Of a stretch of DNA of 64,000 nucleotides, positions 10,496 through 35,369 are shown in pieces. A program made the position numbers and the translations under genes. Source of the stretch: Natronorubrum halophilum (GTDB lineage: Archaea > Halobacteriota > Halobacteria > Halobacteriales > Natrialbaceae); contig NZ_QQTY01000002.1 of NCBI RefSeq assembly GCF_003670115.1, positions 1,054,001-1,118,000 of the forward strand. Direction: 5' to 3'. The notes under the pieces are model-generated. The model was given only the letters and a program-made list of their open reading frames with translations. It was not told the origin of the DNA and ran no database searches. Position 1 is the first letter of the stretch; each line of letters opens with the position of its first letter.

Positions 10496-10869
10496 ACGTA
10501 CGCTGACAACGCGATCAGTGAAATCCGTTCGGGAGCGGACGTGAAACGATAGGGCTGGTGGCCCTCAAAGCGATCCCAACCCCCCAAACGCGGGCAGCTT
10601 ACGATGTCGTTTCGAGTCCGAACGGCCGTCCATTTACTCCGGGCGGACTCCGTTGAAACCTCGAGGAGTTACAAGCGTAGCCGATAGTATAACTGGACGC
10701 TGACTCCGCCGAAGTCCCAGTCGCTCCGATTCGTCGCCGGGTCATTTCAGCTAGCGCGCCGTGCCGCGGCTCGCTACTCCTCGACGAACTCATCGAGGTA
10801 TCCCGTGTTTGGAGCACTATCAACCTCACTGAACTTCCCGCGCCGTCGACGCATCAGGCTTCGTCCGGG
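10496..10869. other. 374-bp intergenic region, no supported gene
   Basis: It lies between the MOSC gene and the alpha/beta hydrolase gene, both on the minus strand. A 26-codon ORF (10774-10854, minus) begins shortly after and in frame with the MOSC stop, but it is too short to call. A 76-codon minus ORF (10599-10829) has no coding bias. I see nothing else. Confidence 0.4.
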
Positions 10870-11361
10870 TTATTCGAGCGGCTCGATGGCGTCTCCGAGG
10901 CGAATTATCCCCTCTTCAAGAATGTCCGCTCGGAGCCCACCTCGGTGAGTGAGTGCCTGCAATACGCCGTCTTGAGTGATGCGCTGAAGGTGGTTACACG
11001 GTTCACACAGTCGGTCTCCTCGACAGATGGCGTCACCGACTCGAAATCGTTGTCCGACGAGATGATTGAGTGCGACATCACGGGTTTCAATATTCCGTCG
11101 GTGTTCTCCCGGTGCAAGTTCGATTCCCGCTTCACGTTCGATTGCTGTCACAGCCTCCTGCTCGATCAACGTGAGGTCGTATCCATCACGGCGTTCCTCG
11201 TCTGACTCCCACTCGACGAAAGTCCCCGTCTCGATCCCGCTAAAGTAGCGATCACCTCGGAGCCCCTTCCCGGCGACCGCTTCGACGTCGGTTTGTTCTT
11301 CCATCTCCGCTTCGGCTTCAGGTGCGATAACAATTCGTTCGACGGTGCCACTACCAGTCAT
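10870..11361 (-). CDS. MOSC domain-containing protein
   Basis: A 163-residue protein. GKGLRGDRYFSG near residues 30-41, the LTLIE segment, HRRNIETRD near 85-93, and the cysteine-bearing LCEPCNHLQ followed by HRGGLRADIL are the conserved blocks of the MOSC domain. This beta-barrel is related to the C-terminal domain of molybdenum cofactor sulfurase and binds sulfur or reduces amidoximes. The start at 11361 is supported by a TATA box 26 nt upstream (leaderless). Codons such as ATA, ATT and AAA are more frequent than in its neighbours. A Mo-related role is possible, but no partner lies adjacent. Confidence 0.9.
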   Translation of the reverse strand: MTGSGTVERIVIAPEAEAEMEEQTDVEAVAGKGLRGDRYFSGIETGTFVEWESDEERRDGYDLTLIEQEAVTAIEREAGIELAPGEHRRNIETRDVALNHLVGQRFRVGDAICRGDRLCEPCNHLQRITQDGVLQALTHRGGLRADILEEGIIRLGDAIEPLE

Positions 11362-11371
11362 GCGGGCTATG

Positions 11372-11392
11372 CTGTCTGACAGAAATATAAAC
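11372..11392 (-). promoter_or_regulatory. promoter of the MOSC gene with small inverted repeat
   Basis: The minus strand carries GTTTATATTT (11383-11392), centred about 26 nt before the ATG at 11361. An inverted repeat CTGTC-T-GACAG (11372-11382) sits directly between TATA and the predicted start, where a repressor could block initiation. Confidence 0.5.
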
Positions 11393-11582
11393 GCTCGGAT
11401 GCAAGTATTGCTGGTTAAGTAACTCAACGGCGTGTCCGCACGCCCACCAAATAGCTGTTTCAGCGTGAGAGTGTCGGACTAACAGGATTTCAACAGAGCC
11501 TACGGGCGGTAATCGTCGCGACGGGTATCCGGCGGGCCGTTCTGCGGTTTACAATGCGCCGTGAAGTCGACGGTCTCCCGCC

Positions 11583-11708
11583 TCACGTCCAGACGCGAAG
11601 GCAGTCGCTCGAGCAAAAGTGCAGATCGATACGCTCCGTCGGGTCGTTCTCGACGTGAGTCGTGAGCGTGTACGCGACCTCTGCCGACGCACAGTTATCG
11701 CAGTTCAT
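11583..11708 (-). CDS. 41-residue haloarchaeal zinc-finger protein
   Basis: A short minus-strand ORF that reads MNCDNCASAEVAYTLTTHVE, continues to LHFCSSDCLRVW and ends in Thr. Two cysteine pairs (Cys3/Cys6 and Cys33/Cys37) about 27 residues apart form a C2C2 treble-clef-like zinc finger, as in many small zinc-finger proteins of haloarchaea. The CxxC plus FCS-x-x-C pattern with a trailing hydrophobic helix is strongly protein-like and its codons end mostly in G or C. Function unknown; proteins of this class are suspected adaptor or regulatory factors. It lies between the TFB gene and the MOSC gene. Confidence 0.72.
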   Translation of the reverse strand: MNCDNCASAEVAYTLTTHVENDPTERIDLHFCSSDCLRVWT

Positions 11709-11840
11709 GCGAGACGAATCACGGGAGATGATATTCAGTATGTCGTGATTATCAGCTTCGACGTACCGGTTAGTCGCGAACTAACTTCAGTAAGACGGTA
11801 TTGCAGGCGGGCGAGAACCGGTACCGGGAAAGCCGACGGC

Positions 11841-12824
11841 TCAGGCCGGGGCGTTCTCTTCGGCCTCGAGCAACTCGTGATACCGGTTGCGGATGGTGAC
11901 CTCGGAGATGCTGGCGACCTCGCTGACGTCGTTCTGGGTGACCTTCTCGTTGGTCAACAGGGCGGCGGCGTACACCGAGGCGGCGGCGAGGCCGACCGGC
12001 GACTTACCGCTGTGGATCCCCTGTTCTTTCGCCGTCGAGAGCAGCGTTCGAGCCCGGCGTTCGGTTTCATCCGAAAGTTCGAGATCGCTGGCGAACCGCG
12101 GCACGTAGCTCTCCGGATCGGCCGGCTGGACCTCGAGGCCGAGTTCCCGGATCACGTAGCGATACGTCCGGGCGACTTCGTCCTTCTCGACGCGGCTGAC
12201 GGCCGAAATTTCGTCGAGGCTGCGCGGCGTGCCGGCCTGACGGGCGGACGCGTACAGCGAGGCCGTCGCGACGCCCTCGATCGATCGCCCGGGGAGGAGA
12301 TCCTCCTCGAGCGCGCGGCGATAGATCACGCTGGCGGTCTCACGGACGTTCTCCGGGAGACCGAGCGCGCTGGCCATTCGGTCGATTTCGCCGAGGGCCT
12401 GCTTGAGGTTGCGCTCCTTGGAGTCGCGGGTGCGAAAGCGCTCGTTCCAGGTGCGCAGCCGTTGCATCTTCTGGCGCTGACGGGTCGAGAGGGATTTCCC
12501 GTAGGCGTCTTTGTTCTGCCAGCCGATGTTCGTCGACAGGCCCTGGTCGTGCATCATGTTCGTCGTCGGCGCCCCGACGCGGGATTTCTCGTCCTTTTCG
12601 GCGGAGTCGAACGCTCGCCACTCCGGCCCGCGGTCGATCTCACTCTCGTCGACGACGAGACCACAGTCCGCACAGACGGTTTCAGCGTGTTCGGTGTCGG
12701 AGATGAGCTGTCCGGCACATTCCGGACACTGCTCTCGGGCTTGCTCGTCCGCTTGCCCGAGTGACTCGTCTGACTCGTGCTGGCGTCGCTTGCCGCTCTG
12801 GGTTCGGATCGTGGTATCAGGCAT
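11841..12824 (-). CDS. tfb: transcription initiation factor IIB (TFB)
   Basis: A 327-residue archaeal TFB. The N-terminal zinc ribbon has Cys33/Cys36 and Cys51/Cys54, followed by the B-finger/linker (DRGPEWRAFDS) and two cyclin-like repeats with ATASLYASARQAGTPRSLDE and GLAAASVYAAALLTN signatures. The C-terminal HTH (TQNDVSEVASISEVTIRNRY) contacts the BRE. It bridges TBP, promoter DNA and RNA polymerase. Haloarchaea carry several TFB paralogues with partly different promoter preferences, so which one this is cannot be decided here. A TTGTG-N6-CACAA inverted repeat overlaps its start codon (12824-12839). Confidence 0.96.
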   Translation of the reverse strand: MPDTTIRTQSGKRRQHESDESLGQADEQAREQCPECAGQLISDTEHAETVCADCGLVVDESEIDRGPEWRAFDSAEKDEKSRVGAPTTNMMHDQGLSTNIGWQNKDAYGKSLSTRQRQKMQRLRTWNERFRTRDSKERNLKQALGEIDRMASALGLPENVRETASVIYRRALEEDLLPGRSIEGVATASLYASARQAGTPRSLDEISAVSRVEKDEVARTYRYVIRELGLEVQPADPESYVPRFASDLELSDETERRARTLLSTAKEQGIHSGKSPVGLAAASVYAAALLTNEKVTQNDVSEVASISEVTIRNRYHELLEAEENAPA

Positions 12825-25017: not shown

Positions 25018-25028
25018 GTTTTATTACC
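25018..25028 (+). promoter_or_regulatory. TATA box of the receiver/HEAT/GT2 operon
   Basis: GTTTTATTACC is centred about 23 nt before the first ATG (25046) and 35 nt before the second (25058). The spacing slightly favours translation from 25058 after a very short leader. Confidence 0.5.
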
Positions 25029-25057
25029 GTAAGCGTCGTTTCGATATGTACTTCGTG

Positions 25058-26125
25058 ATGACAGAATCGGACGAGAGCGCCCCGCACGCATTCGAGTTCC
25101 GTCGCCAGCTAGGCGTCATTCTCGCCAAGGCCACGCTGCTCGAGGACGAGTCCCTCGGCCCGGTGACACCCGAACAGCGTGACGCGCTCGAGGAGGTCGT
25201 CGCGGCGACACTGAAACTGACTGCGGAAACGGCGGACACGCTAGAAACGCACGGTGACACCCCGCAGACGACCGACGACCGGTCTCAGTCGACCGACGAC
25301 GATCTGGCGCTCGACCAGCCGGCCGACGATATCCTGACGCCCGGCGAATCGCCGGCCACACCGGAGTCGGCGACGGTGCTCGACTCGATCGTCCTCGGGG
25401 TCGGCGACGACGAGGAGTTCGTGACGTCGCTGGAGAGACAGTTCGAGCGTGCCGGGTACGCGGTTCACACCGCGACCGACGGCGACGACCTGCGGACGAT
25501 GCTCGACCGATCGCGCCCACAACACCTCGTTCTGGACTGCCGATTTCCGGCGGGGACCTTCCACGACGGCCTCGAGCGAACGATCAGTGGACTCGACGGC
25601 GAAACGTCGCTGACGCTCGTGTCGACGGTGGAAGGCGACCTCCCGGGACCGCTTCAGGGGATCGCGGGCATACTCGCGTCGAGCATCGAGCCGGAACCCC
25701 TCGCGGCACTCCTCGAGAACCGGTTCGAGCTTCCGATCGAGTCCTCGAACGCCGGCACGGCGGTCGCCGTTGTCGGCGACGTCGGAGACCGTTTCCTCGC
25801 GACGCTCGACGAACTCGACAACTCGATCGATCGGGTGACGCACTCGTCCGCCACGGCGCTCGACGCGGTTGATCCGGGCGACGTGGATTTCGTCTTTCTC
25901 TCCGGCCCGGCGATCGATCACGCCGACGAATCCGCGTTGGCCGGGCTCCGAAACCCGACCGACGGGGAAGCGATACCGCTCGTCGCGGTCGGATCGACGC
26001 CGACCGAGGCCGAGTGGGTGCCGTTCCGCGGCCACCGAACGCTCGCACAGACACCGCTCACATCGACCCAGCTTGCCGCGGCAGTACTCGCGGCGATCGA
26101 GCCGGATCCGGACGAGGAACGATGA
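25058..26125 (+). CDS. pseudo-sensor with DHp-like helix pair and two degenerate receiver domains
   Basis: A 355-residue acidic protein. The N-terminal segment FRRQLGVILAKATLLEDESL-GPVTPEQRDALEEVV resembles the HisKA dimerisation hairpin of histidine kinases but lacks the phosphorylated His, and no ATPase domain follows. After a linker, residues about 120-220 form a receiver-like domain that still has an Asp (HLVLDCRF). A second one (GTAVAVVGDVGDRF onward) lacks it (FVFLSGP). The stop overlaps the start of a CheY-like gene (ATGA). It probably acts as a scaffold or regulator for the operon's glycosyltransferase. An alternative start is ATG 25046. Confidence 0.75.
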   Translation: MTESDESAPHAFEFRRQLGVILAKATLLEDESLGPVTPEQRDALEEVVAATLKLTAETADTLETHGDTPQTTDDRSQSTDDDLALDQPADDILTPGESPATPESATVLDSIVLGVGDDEEFVTSLERQFERAGYAVHTATDGDDLRTMLDRSRPQHLVLDCRFPAGTFHDGLERTISGLDGETSLTLVSTVEGDLPGPLQGIAGILASSIEPEPLAALLENRFELPIESSNAGTAVAVVGDVGDRFLATLDELDNSIDRVTHSSATALDAVDPGDVDFVFLSGPAIDHADESALAGLRNPTDGEAIPLVAVGSTPTEAEWVPFRGHRTLAQTPLTSTQLAAAVLAAIEPDPDEER

Positions 26126-26493
26126 CACGTCACGTCCTGATCGCCGAGGACGACCGGCCGATCATCGAGATACTCCGCTATCGGCTCGAGAACGAGACGT
26201 TCGACGTCGACGTCGTCGACGACGGTGACGACTGCTGGGAGTTTCTCCAGTCGGCCGACCAGCTCCCCGACGCGCTCTTGCTCGATATTATGATGCCCGG
26301 ACTCAACGGATTCACGATTCTCAAGCGACTCCGTGCCGAGGAACAGTACGACGATCTCGTCATCGTTCTCGTCACCGGACGGGGACTCGAGGAGGACGTC
26401 CTTCGGGGATTCGAACTCGGGGCGGACGACTACGTGATGAAACCGTTCAGTCCGTCAGAGATCGTCGTCCGCCTCAAACGACTGCTGCGATAA
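26122..26493 (+). CDS. stand-alone response-regulator receiver (CheY-like)
   Basis: A 123-residue receiver domain with all key residues: acidic pair Glu9/Asp10/Asp11, phospho-acceptor Asp55 in LLLDIMMPG, Thr85 in LVTGRG and Lys107 in YVMKPFSP. There is no output domain. It overlaps the upstream pseudo-sensor gene (ATGA) and the downstream HEAT gene (TAATG), so output is most likely protein-protein contact with the operon's HEAT protein or synthase. The kinase that phosphorylates it is not in the window. Confidence 0.93.
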   Translation: MTRHVLIAEDDRPIIEILRYRLENETFDVDVVDDGDDCWEFLQSADQLPDALLLDIMMPGLNGFTILKRLRAEEQYDDLVIVLVTGRGLEEDVLRGFELGADDYVMKPFSPSEIVVRLKRLLR

Positions 26494-27572
26494 TGGTAGA
26501 CCTACAGGATGCGTTCGTCGTCATCGTCTCGCTCTGTCTGTTCGCCGGAGGGCTCACGCTTGCGCTCTCAGTCGTGCTCTTCTGGTTTGATCAGCGGCGC
26601 GAATCGGTTCGGGCCGCACTACTCCCCGCGCTGTTCGAGCAACTCGAGGATCCGGGGCCGGAATCGGTAGCGTGGTACGGGTCCCTCTCGGTGATCGAAC
26701 AGTACGTCGTTCGGCGAACGATCGTCCGGTATCTACGTCGGCTTCAGGGTAGCGATCATCAACAACTGGTTACGCTGTCGTCCGAGTTGGGACTGGACGA
26801 GCAAGCCATCTCGCTGCTTCGGAGCCGATTCTCGTTCAACACGCTTCGCGGACTCATCTGGCTGACCCTGCTCGAGCGACCGGTTTCGAAGGAGTTGTTA
26901 CAGAAACACTGTACGAACCGACCGAACGTCCGCGCGGCCGCCGCCCGACTCATCTACGCGGTCGGCGAGGAGAACGCCGGGAGGGACGGGACCGCGTTAC
27001 TCCTCCGGGACGGGGATCAACCGCTCTCGGTGTACGGAATCGACACGCTGTATCTGCTCAATAAATCCGATGCGACGCCGTTGCTGTCCAACGCGGAAGT
27101 CGACGCCAGTTGGTGGGACAACAGACTGTTGTTGCAGTGTTTGACCGTCCTCGCTCACTGTCAGTCGGCCGAACGGGTCGAGCACTTCGAGTGGATCCCG
27201 CCGCTGCTGTCCGACGACTCCCCGCAGATCCGAGCCGGCGCGTTGAACGCGTTCGAGCGCCACGGATGGCGCGACGCGTTCCGCGAGCACGTCGACATCG
27301 AACAGGTGGTCGCCGATCGGTACCCTGAGGTTCGAACGGCCGGCTACGAACTGCTCAGCCAGTGGGGCGACCGGCGAGCGATCGAGTGGCTTCACTACGC
27401 GGTTCTCAACGATCCCGACGATCGCTCTCGGCTCGCTGCGGCCCGCACGTTGGTCTCGACGGGCCACGACCTCCCGACGCCGACGGAGTCGGCCACCGAC
27501 ACTATCCGAACCGTCGACTGGGCGCGCGCCGAACTGCGATCCAGACGGAGGGTGGCAACCGGATGGTCGTAA
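26493..27572 (+). CDS. membrane-anchored HEAT-repeat protein
   Basis: A 359-residue protein. A single N-terminal membrane helix (AFVVIVSLCLFAGGLTLALSVVLFW, split, residues 7-31) is followed by a cytoplasmic solenoid of helical repeats, e.g. NVRAAAARLIYAVGEE, DSPQIRAGALNAFERHG, YPEVRTAGYELLSQWGDRRA and DRSRLAAARTLVSTG, typical of HEAT/PBS-lyase repeats. Such scaffolds bind partner proteins. It is translationally coupled on both sides: its ATG uses the last base of the receiver's TAA, and its end overlaps the glycosyltransferase gene by 10 bp. Linking the receiver to the synthase is the simplest role. Confidence 0.87.
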   Translation: MVDLQDAFVVIVSLCLFAGGLTLALSVVLFWFDQRRESVRAALLPALFEQLEDPGPESVAWYGSLSVIEQYVVRRTIVRYLRRLQGSDHQQLVTLSSELGLDEQAISLLRSRFSFNTLRGLIWLTLLERPVSKELLQKHCTNRPNVRAAAARLIYAVGEENAGRDGTALLLRDGDQPLSVYGIDTLYLLNKSDATPLLSNAEVDASWWDNRLLLQCLTVLAHCQSAERVEHFEWIPPLLSDDSPQIRAGALNAFERHGWRDAFREHVDIEQVVADRYPEVRTAGYELLSQWGDRRAIEWLHYAVLNDPDDRSRLAAARTLVSTGHDLPTPTESATDTIRTVDWARAELRSRRRVATGWS

Positions 27573-28969
27573 GTGTCGATCTGAGCCCGCTGATCTGGGC
27601 GATCAGCTGGTTCTTCCTGTCGTACTTCGTACTCGTCAACGGGAGTTATCTGTTCGTTCACCTGGTCTCGATCGTCTCCCTCCAGCGGGGCCTCCGGGAG
27701 TGGTTGCTCGAGTCGACGTACAACCCGTACCAGTCGCCGTTTCTCCCCGGAATCGCCATCATCGTCCCCGCGTACAACGAGGAGGCGGTGATCAGCAACT
27801 CGGTCCGCTCGCTGTTGAACCTCGAGTACGGCGTCTTCGAGGTCGTCGTCGTCAACGACGGCTCGACCGACGAGACGCTCGAGCGACTGCTCGAGGATTT
27901 CGACCTCGACCCGGTCGGCGCGGAGGTTCCGTTCGACCTTCCCTGTGAACCCGTCGATCAGGTGTACCAGTCGACGGAGGTCGACCTCGTCGTCATCGAC
28001 AAAGAAAACGGCGGGAAGGCGGACGCGCTCAACGCGGGCGTTTTCTTCACCGATCAGCCGCTGTTCTGTGCGATCGACGCCGACAGCATCGTCGAGCGGG
28101 AGGCCCTTCTCGAGGTGATAGAACCGTTTCTGCGGGATCCAGAGCAGACGATCGCAACCGGCGGCGCCGTCCGCGTCGCGAACGGCTGTTCGGTTACTCG
28201 GGGGACCGTTACCGACGTCGGGCTTTCGAAGAACCGACTCGCGAGCCTCCAGACCGTGGAGTACCTTCGGGCGTTTCTCTCGGGACGGGTCGGACTCAGC
28301 GCGCTCGGGGGGCTACTGATCATCTCCGGTGCGTTCGGCGTGTTTCGCACGAGCGCGGTACGGGAGGTCGGTGGGTATTCGACGGAGACGATAACCGAGG
28401 ATATGGAACTCATCGTTCGTCTCCACCATCACTATGCGGGCACCGACTACCGAATCTCGTTCGTTCCGTACCCCGTCGTGTGGACCGAGGTCCCGTCCTC
28501 CAGACGGGCCCTGGCGCGCCAGCGGATGCGCTGGTATCAGGGCCTACTCGAGACGCTCTGGACGCACCGCAGAATGATCGGGAACCCGAAATACGGCTCG
28601 ATCGGGCTCTTTGCGCTGCCGTTTTTCCTCTTCATCGAAACCATCGGGCCGCTGATCGAAGGGGTCGGCTACATCGTCGTCCCCTTCGCGTTCATCCTCG
28701 GCATGTTGAACGTCCCGTTTTTCCTGCTCTTTCTCGGGGTCGCAGTCGGCGTCGGGACGTTGCTTTCCTGGCTGAGCGTCCTCAACGAGGTCATCAGCTT
28801 CCGGCGCTACCGAAGTCCCGGGGATATCGCCAAACTCCTCGGGTACGGGCTGCTCGAGCACGCACCCTACCGCCAGTGGAAGGCGGCGATTACGTGGCTG
28901 GCGCTCGTCCAGTACGTTCGCGGCGAATCAGCGTGGGGCGAGATGGTGCGAGTCGGCTTCGAGCGCTAA
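27563..28969 (+). CDS. processive membrane GT2 glycosyltransferase (IcaA/BcsA/hyaluronan-synthase-like)
   Basis: A 468-residue polysaccharide-synthase-type protein. It has an N-terminal membrane helix (LIWAISWFFLSYFVLVNGSYL), then a family-2 domain with IIVPAYNEEAVI, VVNDGST near 95-101, CAIDADS near 169-175, TITEDME near 276 and the processivity motif RQRMRWYQG near 318-326. About four C-terminal membrane helices follow. This layout polymerises a sugar nucleotide and moves the chain through the membrane. ATG 27563 overlaps the HEAT gene. The polymer cannot be identified from sequence; poly-N-acetylglucosamine-like, cellulose-like or hyaluronan-like are all possible. Confidence 0.9.
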   Translation: MVVSVDLSPLIWAISWFFLSYFVLVNGSYLFVHLVSIVSLQRGLREWLLESTYNPYQSPFLPGIAIIVPAYNEEAVISNSVRSLLNLEYGVFEVVVVNDGSTDETLERLLEDFDLDPVGAEVPFDLPCEPVDQVYQSTEVDLVVIDKENGGKADALNAGVFFTDQPLFCAIDADSIVEREALLEVIEPFLRDPEQTIATGGAVRVANGCSVTRGTVTDVGLSKNRLASLQTVEYLRAFLSGRVGLSALGGLLIISGAFGVFRTSAVREVGGYSTETITEDMELIVRLHHHYAGTDYRISFVPYPVVWTEVPSSRRALARQRMRWYQGLLETLWTHRRMIGNPKYGSIGLFALPFFLFIETIGPLIEGVGYIVVPFAFILGMLNVPFFLLFLGVAVGVGTLLSWLSVLNEVISFRRYRSPGDIAKLLGYGLLEHAPYRQWKAAITWLALVQYVRGESAWGEMVRVGFER

Positions 28970-29103: not shown

Positions 29104-30168
29104 ATGATCGATGCGAAATCCCTCTGGCTTATTCTCCCTCGCCAGATCCGGGAGTTGCCGGCGGATTTAATCGCCGTCCTCATCGTCGTCGCTGCGACCA
29201 ACGCCGCGGCGTTGCTTCCCGTCGTTCGGGAGACGCCGATTCGAGTTCCGCTCGGGCTCGCGTTCTTGCTTTTCCTCCCCGGATACGCGTTCGTCGCCGC
29301 CCTCTTTCCGGAGGCGAGCGAGCGATCCCGTTCCGGCGACGAGACTGACGGATCGAACGGCTCCGAAGCCGAATCACCCGATTTCGACAACGGATCTGCT
29401 CTCCTCGGCACGACGAGTATCACCGGCATCGAACGGGGCGCGCTCTCATTCGGTTTGAGCGTCGCCATCGTTCCGCTGATCGCACTCCTCCTCGATTTCA
29501 CGCTACGGAGACCCAGCCTCACGTCGATCCTGATCGTGACCAGCGCGTTCGTCGTTCTCTCGTCTATCGTTGCGGGGATCCGGCGCTGGAATCTGTCTCC
29601 GGAAAACCGCTTTGCGGTCCCGTACCGTCTGTGGATCGAATCCGGACGAGAGAGGGTCTTCGGATCGGATAGCCGTGGAACCGTGATCGTGAACGTGCTA
29701 CTGGTCGCTTCCGTGCTCCTCGCCCTCGGTACGGTCGGCTACGCGATCGCCGTTCCGCAAGACGGCGAACGGTTCTCGTCGGCCTACATTTTGGTCGAAA
29801 ACGACGGCGGAGAGCTCGTCGCCGACGGGTATCCGACCGAGTACGACAGCGGAGAATCCCGGGAGATCGTGTTCGGGATCGACAATCAGGAGCACCGAAC
29901 CGTTGACTACACGACGGTCTTCGCGATACAAGAAATCGAGACCCAAAACAACGAAACGATCGTCATCGAACAGGAGGAACTCGATCGATTCGAGGCGCAG
30001 CTGGCACACGGAGAGAGCTGGCACCACGATCACGAAATCGACCCGACGATGACCGGCGAGAACCTTCGCCTGGTGTGGCTGGTGTACCTCGACGGGGAAC
30101 CACCGGACGAACCGACGCTCGAGAACGCGGATCGATCCGTCGACCTCTGGATCGACGTCGACGAATAA
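29104..30168 (+). CDS. DUF1616 domain membrane protein
   Basis: A 354-residue protein. The segment VRETPIRVPLGLAFLLFLPG followed by YAFVAALFP is the DUF1616 hallmark, with further helices around LSVAIVPLIALLLDF, LTSILIVTSAFVVLSSIVAG and VLLVASVLLALGTVGYAIAV. The C-terminal part (from about 235) is an extracellular beta-rich domain with ILVENDGGELVADGYP and EIVFGIDNQEHRTVDYT. In haloarchaea this family sits next to N-glycosylation and surface-glycan genes, which fits this neighbourhood. Function is unknown. Confidence 0.87.
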   Translation: MIDAKSLWLILPRQIRELPADLIAVLIVVAATNAAALLPVVRETPIRVPLGLAFLLFLPGYAFVAALFPEASERSRSGDETDGSNGSEAESPDFDNGSALLGTTSITGIERGALSFGLSVAIVPLIALLLDFTLRRPSLTSILIVTSAFVVLSSIVAGIRRWNLSPENRFAVPYRLWIESGRERVFGSDSRGTVIVNVLLVASVLLALGTVGYAIAVPQDGERFSSAYILVENDGGELVADGYPTEYDSGESREIVFGIDNQEHRTVDYTTVFAIQEIETQNNETIVIEQEELDRFEAQLAHGESWHHDHEIDPTMTGENLRLVWLVYLDGEPPDEPTLENADRSVDLWIDVDE

Positions 30169-30306
30169 GCACGGGTTCGGTCGCGTGCTACCGAAACGCC
30201 GACCGAAGACGGTTCTGGCACGGCTACAGCGCCGTGGCGTTCGATAGATCCGCGAAACCGAAACGGTGTGTGATCGTCGAATAACGGTTTGTACCCGGTG
30301 AGCGGC

Positions 30307-31824
30307 TTATGAATCCGGTATCAACTGACGGATACCCGGGATTCGGCGCTGGATGATCTCCTCGAGAAACTCGACGAATACCAGATCGTACGTCTCTAAT
30401 GACCGGCTTGCGATCACGATACCGAGCGTCAAGACGGTCACCACGATCGCGAATGCACAAATCGTGAGGGCGGTGGTTGGGACGACGCTACGGAAGAGAA
30501 ACCCGAAGGGGAGCAAGACGAGCGGGAGCGCAACGACCGCTCTAATCGACGTTTCAGTGAAGGGCCTGACATCGAAATTCCGCGATAAAAAGGCGTAGAT
30601 GAGGATATTCAGGGCGATGTACGACGCTGCGGACGCGATGGCCGCTCCGATAAACCCGTACAGCGGAATGAGCACGAGGTTCCCGACGACGTTGACGATG
30701 AACGCGGCCACGTTCGTTATCAGGATGAATTTCGTGTACCCGAACGCCGAGAGGGTTTCGCGATTGCGTCCGACCGCCGCGTTGATGAAAAACCCGATAG
30801 AAAGTATTGCGAGCGCAACACCGCCGGTGGAATATTCGTCGCCGAACGTAAGCGAAATGATCTCCCCCGGGAACACGACGAACAGGACAAATATCGGAAA
30901 GGTGAGAACGTAGGTCCATTTAGAGGTCATCGTATACAGCGTTTTGACCCCGTCCAGGTCGTCTTTGTTGTCCAGTCTGGAGGCGACGGGGAGGTAAAGG
31001 TACCCGAACGTGCCGAGCAGCAATACCAGGGCCCCGGCGAGCGGATACGCCGAATTGTATATTCCGACCTCGGTCGACGAACGAAAGTAACCGAGCATCA
31101 GCGTATCCGTCCTCGCGAGAAGCGTGGAAACGACCGTCGAGACGACTAAGGGGGTCGAAAACGCCGTTATCTCCCGTACGTGGAGCGTGAACGAACCGAA
31201 GAGGGGCATGAACCGGCGGAGAAGAGCGAAGGTGACGACCGTGGTCAGCACCGCAGCGATCAGGTAACTGTACCCAGTCGCGATCACGTCCATCCCCGCC
31301 GCGAGGAGGAGAGCCAGAACGAGCAGTCGAAGACTCGGGTAGCCGATGTCTTCCGCAACGATCTTGTACCGCGTTTTTTCGAATCCGCGAATCGCACTCA
31401 CGCCGAGACTGAACGTAACCACGAACGGGATCGTCAGGACAAATAACAGGAGCAGAGAGAGCGACCGAGCGTCTTCAAACAACAGGGATACGATGGTTTC
31501 GTCAAACACCAGCAGGAGTACGCAGATACCGCCGGCTATCGGAAGCGTGACGACCAGTCCGGTCACCCACGTTCCTCTGATATCCGCCGGGCTATCGTAT
31601 CTCGCCATGAAACGGGGTATCCCCTGTTGGTAACCGGCCAGCGCGAGCGTCACCGCGAGCATCATGAGATCGACCGCGATACTGAACTCACCGTACGCGT
31701 TCGCCGACAACACTCGACCGAGAAGAACGCGTTCGAACAGGACGGCGACGGAGCCGAAAACCGTTCCGACGAACATCAATCCCGCGCTCGAAAGAACCTT
31801 CCCGAGGTCGTGTTCGCGGTCCAT
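30307..31824 (-). CDS. oligosaccharide flippase (Wzx-like, MOP superfamily)
   Basis: A 505-residue protein with about 14 membrane helices. It begins LGKVLSSAGLMFVGTVFGSVAVLF with the typical PST/Wzx opening, then RVLSANAYGEFSIAVDLM and TLMLGYFRSSTEVGIYNSAYPLAGAL. It should flip lipid-linked glycans to the outer face. Codons are less GC-rich than in the housekeeping genes. It follows the phosphodiesterase gene on the same strand by two bases, so they are co-transcribed. Confidence 0.9.
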   Translation of the reverse strand: MDREHDLGKVLSSAGLMFVGTVFGSVAVLFERVLLGRVLSANAYGEFSIAVDLMMLAVTLALAGYQQGIPRFMARYDSPADIRGTWVTGLVVTLPIAGGICVLLLVFDETIVSLLFEDARSLSLLLLFVLTIPFVVTFSLGVSAIRGFEKTRYKIVAEDIGYPSLRLLVLALLLAAGMDVIATGYSYLIAAVLTTVVTFALLRRFMPLFGSFTLHVREITAFSTPLVVSTVVSTLLARTDTLMLGYFRSSTEVGIYNSAYPLAGALVLLLGTFGYLYLPVASRLDNKDDLDGVKTLYTMTSKWTYVLTFPIFVLFVVFPGEIISLTFGDEYSTGGVALAILSIGFFINAAVGRNRETLSAFGYTKFILITNVAAFIVNVVGNLVLIPLYGFIGAAIASAASYIALNILIYAFLSRNFDVRPFTETSIRAVVALPLVLLPFGFLFRSVVPTTALTICAFAIVVTVLTLGIVIASRSLETYDLVFVEFLEEIIQRRIPGIRQLIPDS

Positions 31825-31826
31825 CG

Positions 31827-33458
31827 TCAGAGGTAGCCGAGGTCACTCAATCGATCGCGGACTTCGTCTTGATCCTGGTCGTACTCCACCTCCTGAGGTA
31901 TCGAAACGTCGTACTCCGCTACAGTCGTCGAGGCGGTCAGGAGGTCGTCGCGAGTATCGCCGGTCATCTGTTTCGGAACGGGGTATCCCAGCACTGACAT
32001 CGTCATCGGCGCGATATCGACGAGATCGATCCGACTCCGTTCGTCGGTTTCCTCGAACCCCGGTCCGGACCCGATAAAGACGCCGGTGCGCTTGTGGTCG
32101 TACGTCGACGCGGGGAGGAACTCCGTTCCGTACAATTTCGTCGAAACGGTGTGGTTCATATCGGTCGGTAAGAACAGCACATCACACGCCCACTCGCTGT
32201 ACGGCCCCGTGTAGAGCTCCTCTCTCGGACGAACGAATTCGAACGCCTTCTCGCCGGTCGGCATCCGCAAAGAGGACAGGAGTGAGATGATCTCGCTCCG
32301 AACGTCCTCGTACGCCGATCGAGGCACGACCCCTGATGGATCGCGACCTGCGACGTTGATCCGAATCCCCTGTTCGGATCCGTGACGGCAGTAGGCCACG
32401 GAATCTTCCCACACCACGTTCCGTGCAGCCCCCTTCCAGAGTCGCTCCGGAAGGCGTCCGATCAGTGGCTCCGCCAGACCGAGTCGATCGGCGACGTTGT
32501 ACAGTTTCGCCGGCGGGAGCCCGACCGCGGAGCTCGCTTTGAAACCGGTCTGAAACAGTGTCGAAAGCGGACCCGTCTCCTCGCCGTTCGCCGTGCGTTC
32601 GATGTTGACGTCACCCGGCCCAGTGCTATCGACGCTCGAGGTGAGGAACCCGTTGTTCTCCAGGATCTGATTGACGTGTATCTGATAGCCGTCCACCGGT
32701 CCCATCCCGTGATCCGAGCAGACGATGATGTTCGTCTCGTCGTCGACGGCATCACGAAGCACCTCGAGCGCATCGTTCGCGGCCGCGTAGACCCGTCTGA
32801 AATGGCGCGGATCGCTCGAGTTGTGGAATATCGCGTCCGTCTTTTGGAATTGAACGATCGCGAGCTGCCACGGGTGGGCGTCCAGTACGTGAGCCCCGGC
32901 ACGAGCGCGCATCCCGAGTAAATCGACGTAGCCGGCAACCCGTTTCTCGGCGTCGGTCGTCGCTTCGTCCTTCGAATAGATACGATACCGTTCGCCGATC
33001 GCTTCAGAAATGTCTTCACGAATACCCTTCGGATATCCCGGTTCGTCGGCCGGAGAGAGGTACCCCGGAATCAGTACCCCGTCCAGTGGCTCCGCGGGGT
33101 GGGTGACCGGGAGATTCATCACCACCGAGGGGACGTCGATCGACGTGAGATACGTCCACAGCGCTGGAGCGCGGACGTCGGCTCTGGTGACCGTTCGTGC
33201 AGTATCCGGGTAGCGATCCTCGTGGTGGAAGAAATCGAATACCCCGTGGTGATCCGGCGAGACGCCCGTGTACATCGAAGGCCAGGCGCTTCCCGTCCAC
33301 GGCGGATGAACGGACTCGAGTCGAGCGGTCGTCCCGTCCTCCCGGAGCGAGTTGATCTCGCTTACGTCGGCTGCAAATCGATCGAGATACCGCCAGTCCA
33401 TTCCGTCGAAGCCGACGATAAGCGTCTTATTTCCGGAGTGTTCATTTTTACTAATCAT
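31827..33458 (-). CDS. type I phosphodiesterase / alkaline phosphatase family protein (first of divergent pair)
   Basis: A 543-residue protein of the nucleotide pyrophosphatase/phosphodiesterase branch of the alkaline phosphatase superfamily. TLIVGFDGMDW near 11-21 gives the first metal Asp, WPSMYTGVSPDHHG carries the nucleophile Thr, and IVCSDHGMGP supplies the second-site Asp/His. There is no signal peptide. It may cleave or transfer phospho-sugars during surface-glycan synthesis. I start at ATG 33458 (MISKNEHSGN); an in-frame upstream extension of 46 residues looks unusually protein-like. TATA-like GGGATAAACC lies about 20-26 nt upstream. Co-transcribed with the flippase. Confidence 0.85.
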   Translation of the reverse strand: MISKNEHSGNKTLIVGFDGMDWRYLDRFAADVSEINSLREDGTTARLESVHPPWTGSAWPSMYTGVSPDHHGVFDFFHHEDRYPDTARTVTRADVRAPALWTYLTSIDVPSVVMNLPVTHPAEPLDGVLIPGYLSPADEPGYPKGIREDISEAIGERYRIYSKDEATTDAEKRVAGYVDLLGMRARAGAHVLDAHPWQLAIVQFQKTDAIFHNSSDPRHFRRVYAAANDALEVLRDAVDDETNIIVCSDHGMGPVDGYQIHVNQILENNGFLTSSVDSTGPGDVNIERTANGEETGPLSTLFQTGFKASSAVGLPPAKLYNVADRLGLAEPLIGRLPERLWKGAARNVVWEDSVAYCRHGSEQGIRINVAGRDPSGVVPRSAYEDVRSEIISLLSSLRMPTGEKAFEFVRPREELYTGPYSEWACDVLFLPTDMNHTVSTKLYGTEFLPASTYDHKRTGVFIGSGPGFEETDERSRIDLVDIAPMTMSVLGYPVPKQMTGDTRDDLLTASTTVAEYDVSIPQEVEYDQDQDEVRDRLSDLGYL

Positions 33459-33788
33459 TATTGGCGCTGGGTTTATCCCGTCGTGGAGGGCGTACAACCG
33501 CTCGAGAACGTTACCGAATTCTACTGGAGATAGAGCGCCCGGGTACTTGAAATCCTCCCACGGTTTCCTTACCGGTCGTCGGCATAATGGTCCCATTCCG
33601 GAACGTTCATCCTCGGTTTCCGAGAGTATCTTTCCGATTGTGAAATATCAGATTCCGGTTGTGTGGGCGGTGTGTGAACGATCGATAGCGGCCAGAAAAG
33701 TAACATACCGACGATGGTAATATCCTGACCGGAGATACTATATAATTACTGAAGAACGCCTTTACCCTTCGGTCACGAGTGGATAGCT
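33459..33788. other. 330-bp divergent promoter region between the two phosphodiesterase genes
   Basis: Two promoters diverge here: a plus-strand TATA (ATACTATATAATT, 33735-33747) before 33789, and a minus-strand GGGATAAACC near 33474-33484 before 33458. The first 140 bp on the minus side are in an open frame continuous with the 31827-33458 gene. The rest is AT-richer and holds no gene I can support. Confidence 0.45.
33735..33747 (+). promoter_or_regulatory. TATA box for the phosphodiesterase gene at 33789
   Basis: ATACTATATAATT is a strong TATA element about 48 nt before the ATG at 33789, predicting a leader of about 20 nt. Confidence 0.5.
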
Positions 33789-35369
33789 ATGTCCACCCCT
33801 CCTGACGCGAACGGTGCGTTCGTTTTCGGACTGGACGGTGCCCCGTGGGATTTGCTCGAGAAGTGGGCCGAATCGGGCGAACTTCCGAACTTCAATACGA
33901 TCATCGACGAAGGGGTTTCGGGACCGCTCGAGAGTACGGTTCCGCCGACGACTCCCGTCGCGTGGCCCTCTATCGCGTCGGGGGTAACGGCTGGAAAACA
34001 CGGAATCTACTCGTTTCGCCGCCTCACATCCGATTATCGGTACGAGATAAATACGAGCGCAGCGATCCGGCAACCGCTGCTGTGGGACATCTGTTCGCCC
34101 TCGGTCGTCGGCAACGTCCCGATGACATACCCGCCGAAAGAGATCGACGGCGAGATGGTGACCGGCATGATGACGCCCTCCCTCGAGGGGGCATTTACGC
34201 ACCCGCCGGAACTGGCCGACAAAATACGAAGCCGAATTCCCGAGTACGAGGTCGGATTGAGCTGGAGTTCGTACCAGGGGAAAGAGGAGCAATTTATCGA
34301 CGACCTACACGAGTTACTGGAGAACAGGTATCAGCTGATGAAGTTACTGTTCGAGAACGACGAGTGGGAGCTGTTTTTCTTCGTCTACACCTCTCCCGAT
34401 CGGTTACAGCACCTGATCTGGGAGGAGGACGTGTTACTGGATTACTACAAACGAATAGACGATATCTTGGGAGAGGTACTCGAGTACGTCCAGGATCGGG
34501 GAGCCCACCTGTACGTCGTCTCCGATCACGGGTTCGGACCCGTTTCCGAGAACGTCCACGTGAACACGATTCTCGAAAACGAGGGGTTCCTCGATGTCGG
34601 CGGAAACAAGAGCCGTTCGACGCTTTCCAGGGCGGGCATCACCAAGAACAGGGTGTTAGGCCTACTCGAGTCCGTTAACGCCAAAGAGGCTGCGTTGTCG
34701 TACGTTCCGGACGCGGTCATCCGCGACATCGCGACGCGGGTTCCGGGTGAGCACGGACTCTTCGACGTCGATATCAGCAGTACCGAAGCGATGGCGCACG
34801 AATACGGGTTAATCTATATCAACGACGACGAGCGATTCGACGAGGGAGTCGTCCCGGCCGACAACCGCCAAGCCGTGAAAGACGATATTTTGGCCGCACT
34901 GGACTCCGACGAGGGTGCCGAACCGTACCGGTCACTACTGAGCGCCCACGACGGAACGGAGCTGTTTCCGACCGACGCGGATGCGCCCGATCTCGTCGTC
35001 GTCGTGAAAGACGGCTACGAGATCAGTACGGCGATTGCACCGGAGGTACTGACCCCGTTACCGGAGAAAGGCGCAACCCACCGAAAGCAGGGGATATTCT
35101 TCGCCTGGGGTGAAGATATCCGCCACGAGTCCGTCGACACCGGGTTCTCCGTGTACGACGTTGCCCCGACGTTGTTACACGGACTCGGAAAACCGGTTCC
35201 CGAGAACGTGGACGGTCAGGTTCGTAAACAGATCTTCGAGGAGGGGTCGGAGCCGTACGGTTCGGCGGTGGAAACGACGTCGTATACGAGCGAATCACGA
35301 TCCGGCGGACGAGACGAGGACTTCGAAGACGTCGAAAGCCGATTACGCGGGTTAGGATACATCGACTGA
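33789..35369 (+). CDS. type I phosphodiesterase / alkaline phosphatase family protein (second of pair)
   Basis: A 526-residue paralogue of the divergent gene product. FVFGLDGAPWDLLEK near 12-26 holds the first metal Asp. TPVAWPSIASGVTAGKHG has Ser where the nucleophile Thr usually sits. YVVSDHGFGPVSENVHVN gives the second-site metal ligands, and THRKQGIFFAWGEDIR and YDVAPTLLHGLG complete the family pattern. The end (EDFEDVESRLRGLGYID) matches that of its neighbour (EVRDRLSDLGYL). It has no signal peptide. Its substrate is probably a glycan- or lipid-linked phosphodiester, given the surrounding flippase and glycosyltransferases. Confidence 0.87.
   Translation: MSTPPDANGAFVFGLDGAPWDLLEKWAESGELPNFNTIIDEGVSGPLESTVPPTTPVAWPSIASGVTAGKHGIYSFRRLTSDYRYEINTSAAIRQPLLWDICSPSVVGNVPMTYPPKEIDGEMVTGMMTPSLEGAFTHPPELADKIRSRIPEYEVGLSWSSYQGKEEQFIDDLHELLENRYQLMKLLFENDEWELFFFVYTSPDRLQHLIWEEDVLLDYYKRIDDILGEVLEYVQDRGAHLYVVSDHGFGPVSENVHVNTILENEGFLDVGGNKSRSTLSRAGITKNRVLGLLESVNAKEAALSYVPDAVIRDIATRVPGEHGLFDVDISSTEAMAHEYGLIYINDDERFDEGVVPADNRQAVKDDILAALDSDEGAEPYRSLLSAHDGTELFPTDADAPDLVVVVKDGYEISTAIAPEVLTPLPEKGATHRKQGIFFAWGEDIRHESVDTGFSVYDVAPTLLHGLGKPVPENVDGQVRKQIFEEGSEPYGSAVETTSYTSESRSGGRDEDFEDVESRLRGLGYID

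Follow-up and report, generated by a model that had tools for sequence, protein, structure and literature searches.

A receiver-HEAT-GT2 gene module shared by haloarchaea and bacteria, with proposed two-component control of a polysaccharide synthase

Described systems and the four-gene operon

Stand-alone receivers make up ~40% of archaeal response regulators and, since most of them have no conserved gene neighborhood, their outputs are obscure (PMC5847659). In Methanobacteriaceae, a receiver (REC) is fused to a GT2 of family PF13641, e.g., MTH_548 (PMC5847659). Such proteins join archaeal receiver domain(s) to a BcsA-like GT2 and, by analogy, show independently that a receiver can couple to such a synthase. 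Their likeness to the locus described here is one of domain family; each is a single fused protein of another lineage with no HEAT adaptor reported (PMC5847659), whereas in our window (the whole 64,000-nt stretch of Natronorubrum halophilum DNA that was analyzed) receiver and synthase are separate ORFs. PgaC/IcaA (TIGR03937) resembles the window's synthase in its DxD, TED, and QxxRW motifs and in being membrane-embedded; however, it is partnered by PgaD, with c-di-GMP, whereas the window's synthase is accompanied by a HEAT protein and a receiver. In E. coli, the exopolysaccharide synthase NfrB-NfrA likewise has a processive GT2 whose operon supplies a local signaling input of its own (PMC8669469), and its TPR beta-barrel partner is comparable to a TPR-YaiO gene in one of the bacterial loci below, but that input is c-di-GMP via MshEN, with neither receiver nor HEAT protein. 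The window's synthase carries neither MshEN nor PilZ. Finally, a table of Clostridium perfringens NELoc-2 genes places a HEAT protein (CP4_0467) next to a "chitin synthase" GT2 (CP4_0468); it proposes no functional link between them and lists no receiver (PMC2879425). Their size and annotation fit the HEAT-GT2 pair described here, and they are possibly the same pair. We found no description of a receiver-HEAT-GT2 trio in the open full-text literature searched, which takes in a minority of subscription journals, in agreement with an earlier note on this DNA, which knew of no characterized archaeal system of this composition.

The operon and its candidate promoter are as follows:

25019..25026, + strand: TTTTATTA, candidate TATA box of archaeal type for this operon, from a reading of the sequence
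25058..26125, + strand: gene A, DHp-like hairpin with no acceptor His (F12), then REC1 and a pseudo-REC2
26122..26493, + strand: gene B, stand-alone CheY-like receiver (PF00072), phospho-acceptor Asp55 (codon 26284-26286)
26493..27572, + strand: gene C, one membrane helix at the N-terminus, then a HEAT solenoid predicted to be cytoplasmic (PF13646, AlphaFold2, family alignment)
27563..28969, + strand: gene D, membrane GT2 (PF13641) of the processive type by its DxD, TED, and QxxRW motifs

The four genes, which lie in a haloarchaeal genome of 4.67 Mb (designated G000), overlap end to end on the + strand, by ATGA (A/B), TAATG (B/C), and 10 bp (C/D), exactly as the earlier note had described them. 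Since TTTTATTA sits 27 nt before an ATG at 25046, gene A may begin there, as a leaderless transcript. Scans for sigma-70 promoters and for terminators gave nothing of use, in keeping with an archaeal genome. The receiver, the membrane HEAT protein, and the D-family GT2 thus lie on one strand in the order that we call the REC-HEAT-GT2 module and, because this order is conserved in dozens of genomes, it is no chance arrangement.

Gene B matched PF00072 with 94 bits, and its Asp10, Asp55, and Lys107 were invariant across 24 relatives. It consists of a receiver domain alone, with the acidic pocket, acceptor Asp, Thr/Ser, and Lys of a CheY-like stand-alone response regulator, so that the earlier description of an intact receiver with no output domain stands. 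Gene C gave a PF13646 HEAT match and an AlphaFold2 model (pLDDT 91.5) in which a single long helix at the N-terminus (residues 2-52) is followed by a solenoid made entirely of helices; together these bear out its earlier designation as a membrane-anchored HEAT solenoid. Since Foldseek returned only generic HEAT/ARM solenoids, none of them at E <0.001, the fold of C names no specific partner.

Gene D matched PF13641 with 90 bits as well as cellulose-synthase structures, and its DGS, DxD (D172/D174), TED (278-280), and QxxRW (320-324) motifs were invariant across 24 relatives. By these motifs and by its family and structure matches, D is classed as a processive-type GT2 synthase, as in the earlier note, which had pointed to QxxRW. 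The best-scoring named GT2 family was TIGR03937 (the PNAG synthase PgaC), at 136 bits, far below the equivalog cut-off of 422 for assignment as a PNAG synthase. Halorubrum modules have GlmS and a GlmU-like nucleotidyltransferase as neighbors, and a GlcNAc-type polymer is plausible for D. Pfam showed neither PilZ nor MshEN on D.

Several features of the D family and of the flanks were also observed. In L042, L052, and other Halorubrum-type loci, D has a C-terminal tail of up to ~250 aa with repeats such as GDGGFVWTTDPS, a type of tail not present in most other genera. In L061 (G060), D is split between two frames at 10513-11930 (profile positions 7-265, then 262-470), by a frameshift or an assembly error. 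Positions 29104-35369 of the window encode a DUF1616 protein, a Wzx-like flippase, and two divergent PF01663 phosphodiesterase-type proteins; this stretch resembles a glycan-biosynthesis neighborhood, and GC dips at 30-38 kb. In the closest relatives, mutL (L031 5344-7656) lies directly 5' of gene A, an arrangement not conserved in the window.

Distribution of the module in haloarchaea and bacteria

Across 292 haloarchaeal genomes of the class, a search with C found it in 48 genomes (20 of 77 genera), and a search with D found D in the same 48 in equal copy number. There are 51 copies of each, including three in G248 and two in G089, and in all 51 the C gene immediately precedes D, with both on one strand. 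Detailed reading of 41 loci, the window's included, showed B immediately 5' of C in 40 cases. C and D are present with no B nearby in the haloarchaeal loci L070, L076, and L079, which indicates that the module does not strictly require B in cis. Since the haloarchaeal D proteins formed one clade (SH-aLRT 100) in a tree with their relatives, a single origin in the class is likely. In several loci, the module adjoins a kinase: a HATPase protein overlaps B in L051, a PAS/GAF kinase is found in L048, and GAF kinases in L031, L040, L065, and L042.

Outside haloarchaea, a single-sequence contig search with C gave no matches, and an alignment-based search with D returned relatives with 41-50% identity under at least 16 bacterial phylum labels, including Bacillota, Actinomycetota, Bacteroidota, Gemmatimonadota, Acidobacteriota, Pseudomonadota, Nitrospirota, and Fidelibacterota. 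Among the matches listed, 64 non-haloarchaeal loci had enough upstream sequence for gene order to be counted; a membrane-anchored protein of ~350 aa was directly 5' of D in 54 of these, a receiver was upstream in 48, and a GG[DE]EF motif was upstream in 12. The haloarchaeal C profile matched 44 of 56 of these ~350-aa proteins, and a profile-profile comparison with hhalign gave E 1e-26. The bacterial receivers occur alone, after a kinase, or within HPt-REC-GGDEF-REC proteins such as those identified by Pfam in L103 (Bacillaceae), where HEAT follows, and in L109. Among 21 bacterial loci that have several receivers, it is the HEAT-adjacent one that most resembles B in 20. In L113 (Luteimonas), a CHASE3-PAS-kinase-REC protein, a REC, and TPR-YaiO precede HEAT and GT2. 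From these gene orders, the trio appears to be kept as a unit, with GGDEF as an addition in some bacteria.

Absence of synteny in other genomes had been named in advance as grounds for discarding the earlier interpretation; instead, nearly all carriers proved to have the B-C-D order, which is also found in bacteria. The same result overturned the idea that this composition is archaeal, since the module is pan-prokaryotic and some bacterial versions carry GGDEF between two receivers. We likewise rejected the module as an archaeal invention, on the D relatives and gene order in at least 16 bacterial phyla, and B as a chance neighbor of C and D.

The earlier premise that archaea generally lack c-di-GMP fared well, in that neither G000 nor any of the 48 module-bearing haloarchaeal genomes contained a GGDEF domain. 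The scarcity of GGDEF in haloarchaea agrees with a published census (PMC5847659). With neither PilZ nor MshEN on the synthase and no GGDEF in the genome, D does not have the marks of a c-di-GMP-controlled synthase. GGDEF matches occurred in three of the 292 haloarchaea (G197, G033, and G217), all without the module; such matches are unusual for archaea.

Two exceptional arrangements were seen outside haloarchaea. In L138, a Thermoplasmatota MAG, a HEAT-GT2 pair has no receiver nearby and D groups with Bipolaricaulota, which suggests transfer or a misbinned contig. In the Nitrospira loci L096, L107, L118, and L121, no HEAT gene adjoins D, and a C-like HEAT gene lies ~4 kb away on the opposite strand.

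Gene A, protein E, and a second locus

Spo0B- and ChpT-like proteins are DHp-type phosphotransferases that have no kinase activity. The long forms of A are similar to them in having a DHp hairpin with an intact His and no recognizable ATPase. Three such relatives (L048, L060, and L062) carry an intact HELRTPL H-box and GAF-like sequence, showed no recognizable ATPase, and directly precede B in their own loci. The A of the window differs in that its hairpin has no His and receiver-like domains replace the degenerate ATPase. Its HisKA match (12.7 bits) was below the cut-off and REC1 scored 27.4 bits. The model (pLDDT 71) has a helical hairpin at 7-65 and alpha/beta domains at 110-221 and 234-347, and Foldseek matches to PleD and other receivers confirmed receiver folds, not function. 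In an alignment of the window's A with 13 relatives (14 sequences), the DHp phospho-acceptor position (residue 12) holds F in the window's protein, and the remaining short forms have either F or Y there, so the window's A does not have the His of a histidine kinase. It had no PF02518 match to HATPase_c, for which the modeled architecture leaves no space. Arg15 and Leu18 of the hairpin are conserved. In REC1, Asp160 at the acceptor position and Ser189 are invariant in all 14 sequences and the Lys is lost; in REC2, no conserved acceptor Asp was found. Thus, of the earlier account of A as a His-less, HisKA-like hairpin followed by two decayed receivers, loss of the His held while decay was overstated for REC1.

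Since dN/dS of A was 0.24-0.34 in close pairs, A is maintained by purifying selection, and we rejected the possibility that it is a decaying pseudogene. Nonetheless, it changes more quickly than its neighbors, for which dN/dS was 0.04-0.22 (B), 0.15-0.26 (C), and 0.04-0.12 (D). It is also the variable part of the module: most haloarchaeal loci have none, and some have a long A with an intact His or a true kinase; A as a constant member, as the four-gene description could be taken to imply, was therefore not upheld. Purifying selection and the invariance of Asp160 and Ser189 would also suit an A that is an active signaling protein rather than a pseudo-kinase scaffold, e.g., through phosphorylation of REC1 Asp160. 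Loss of the conserved receiver Lys and the lack of A in most loci argue against such activity, which we regard as rather unlikely and which, in any case, is compatible with the explanation for B, C, and D favored below.

A further gene, E, encodes a secreted protein of ~750 aa near the module in Halorubrum and family f3, often with a Tat motif and lipobox. E had no match in Pfam, NCBIfam, or PDB; its conserved EW.P and EFG motifs, taken by themselves, suggest a TIM-barrel glycosidase. It was found in 35 of the 292 haloarchaeal genomes, namely 34 of the 48 module carriers (14 have none) and, as a fragment, one of the 244 genomes that lack the module (Fisher p 5e-32), and it lies within ~10 kb of D in 26 of the 34 genomes. 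In Bacillaceae, a 41%-identical relative of E is found directly 3' of the trio; one wrongly specified alignment row (L065:2666-2668) was excluded. In the window's genome, E is on a contig other than the window's, at the head of a second locus (G000:C1:903769-909387, corresponding to L153:8770-14388):

G000:C1:903769-906039: E
G000:C1:906162-907301: PAS-HisKA-HATPase kinase, after E
G000:C1:907651-909387: long A with intact His, after the kinase

The long A encoded here shares 48-50% identity with its counterparts ahead of B in L060 and L062. In G071, E and an orthologous kinase (68% identical) lie a few kb from the trio; a long A beside E was not found in G071, G062, or G116. Judging by these neighborhoods, the system is likely split in two in the window's genome, with the second locus as the other half. 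The kinase at G000:C1:906162-907301 is the best candidate for phosphorylating B, an assignment drawn from gene neighborhood in one relative, G071.

Proposed mechanism, alternatives, and significance

The explanation that best accounts for these results, and in which we have moderate confidence, is kinase-to-receiver control of the processive polymer synthase D through the HEAT adaptor C. A histidine kinase, with G000:C1:906162-907301 as the best candidate, would phosphorylate Asp55 of B, and phosphorylated B would dock on membrane-anchored C, predicted to sit on or beside D. Docking would then switch the synthesis or secretion of a D-made surface polysaccharide, plausibly one containing GlcNAc. 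The hairpin of A would neither phosphorylate nor accept phosphate, yet its retained DHp-like surface could dock receivers without phosphotransfer, making A a scaffold or buffer that most likely holds B near D or tunes its phosphorylation. E, as a Tat lipoprotein with glycosidase-like motifs, may act on the polymer extracellularly. We infer every arrow of this scheme from conservation, adjacency, and motif integrity; this applies to phosphotransfer, B-C-D contact, the direction of control, the identity of the polymer, and the roles of A and E. The earlier interpretation, taken as a whole, is therefore partly supported. More tentatively, at somewhat under even confidence, we propose that in many bacteria as well as haloarchaea a phosphorylated CheY-like receiver directly binds the synthase's HEAT adaptor to gate polysaccharide synthesis with no second messenger.

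C could instead be an obligate structural partner of D, i.e., an assembly or polymer-translocation subunit, with B controlling something else, such as localization of the complex, so that phosphorylation does not gate catalysis. Linkage of C to D is indeed tighter than that of B to C, as the two always co-occur and L070, L076, and L079 have no B nearby. Against this, B immediately precedes C with a single exception among the 41 haloarchaeal loci read, and the most B-like of several bacterial receivers nearly always (20 of 21 loci) adjoins the HEAT gene; we consider this alternative unlikely. B itself could signal elsewhere or serve as a phosphate sink. We find it improbable that the glycan made by D serves S-layer or lipid-linked glycosylation, not exopolysaccharide, with the operon belonging to the neighboring genes: a Wzx-like flippase and a DUF1616 gene do follow it (29104-31824), but a search with the window's proteins found no recurrence of them at the other 40 loci, while D carries QxxRW and its recurring partner is the secreted glycosidase-like protein E. 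That the four genes are co-transcribed with no mechanistic link is very hard to credit since, common as gene overlaps are in compact genomes, the order is kept across haloarchaea and at least 16 bacterial phyla despite divergent flanks.

If control of D through B and C is as proposed, receiver-HEAT gating would be a post-translational control parallel to c-di-GMP, and the bacterial REC-GGDEF-REC versions would combine both. The results suggest direct two-component control of a GT2 family that is present in at least 16 bacterial phyla and has some cultured, tractable members, and they newly tie the unannotated secreted protein family E to the same polymer. The module thus looks like a widespread, uncharacterized on/off switch for sugar-polymer production. 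For haloarchaea, it offers one archaeal stand-alone receiver a specific and nearly invariant predicted target, through which the question of what CheY-like proteins regulate in archaea becomes concretely testable.
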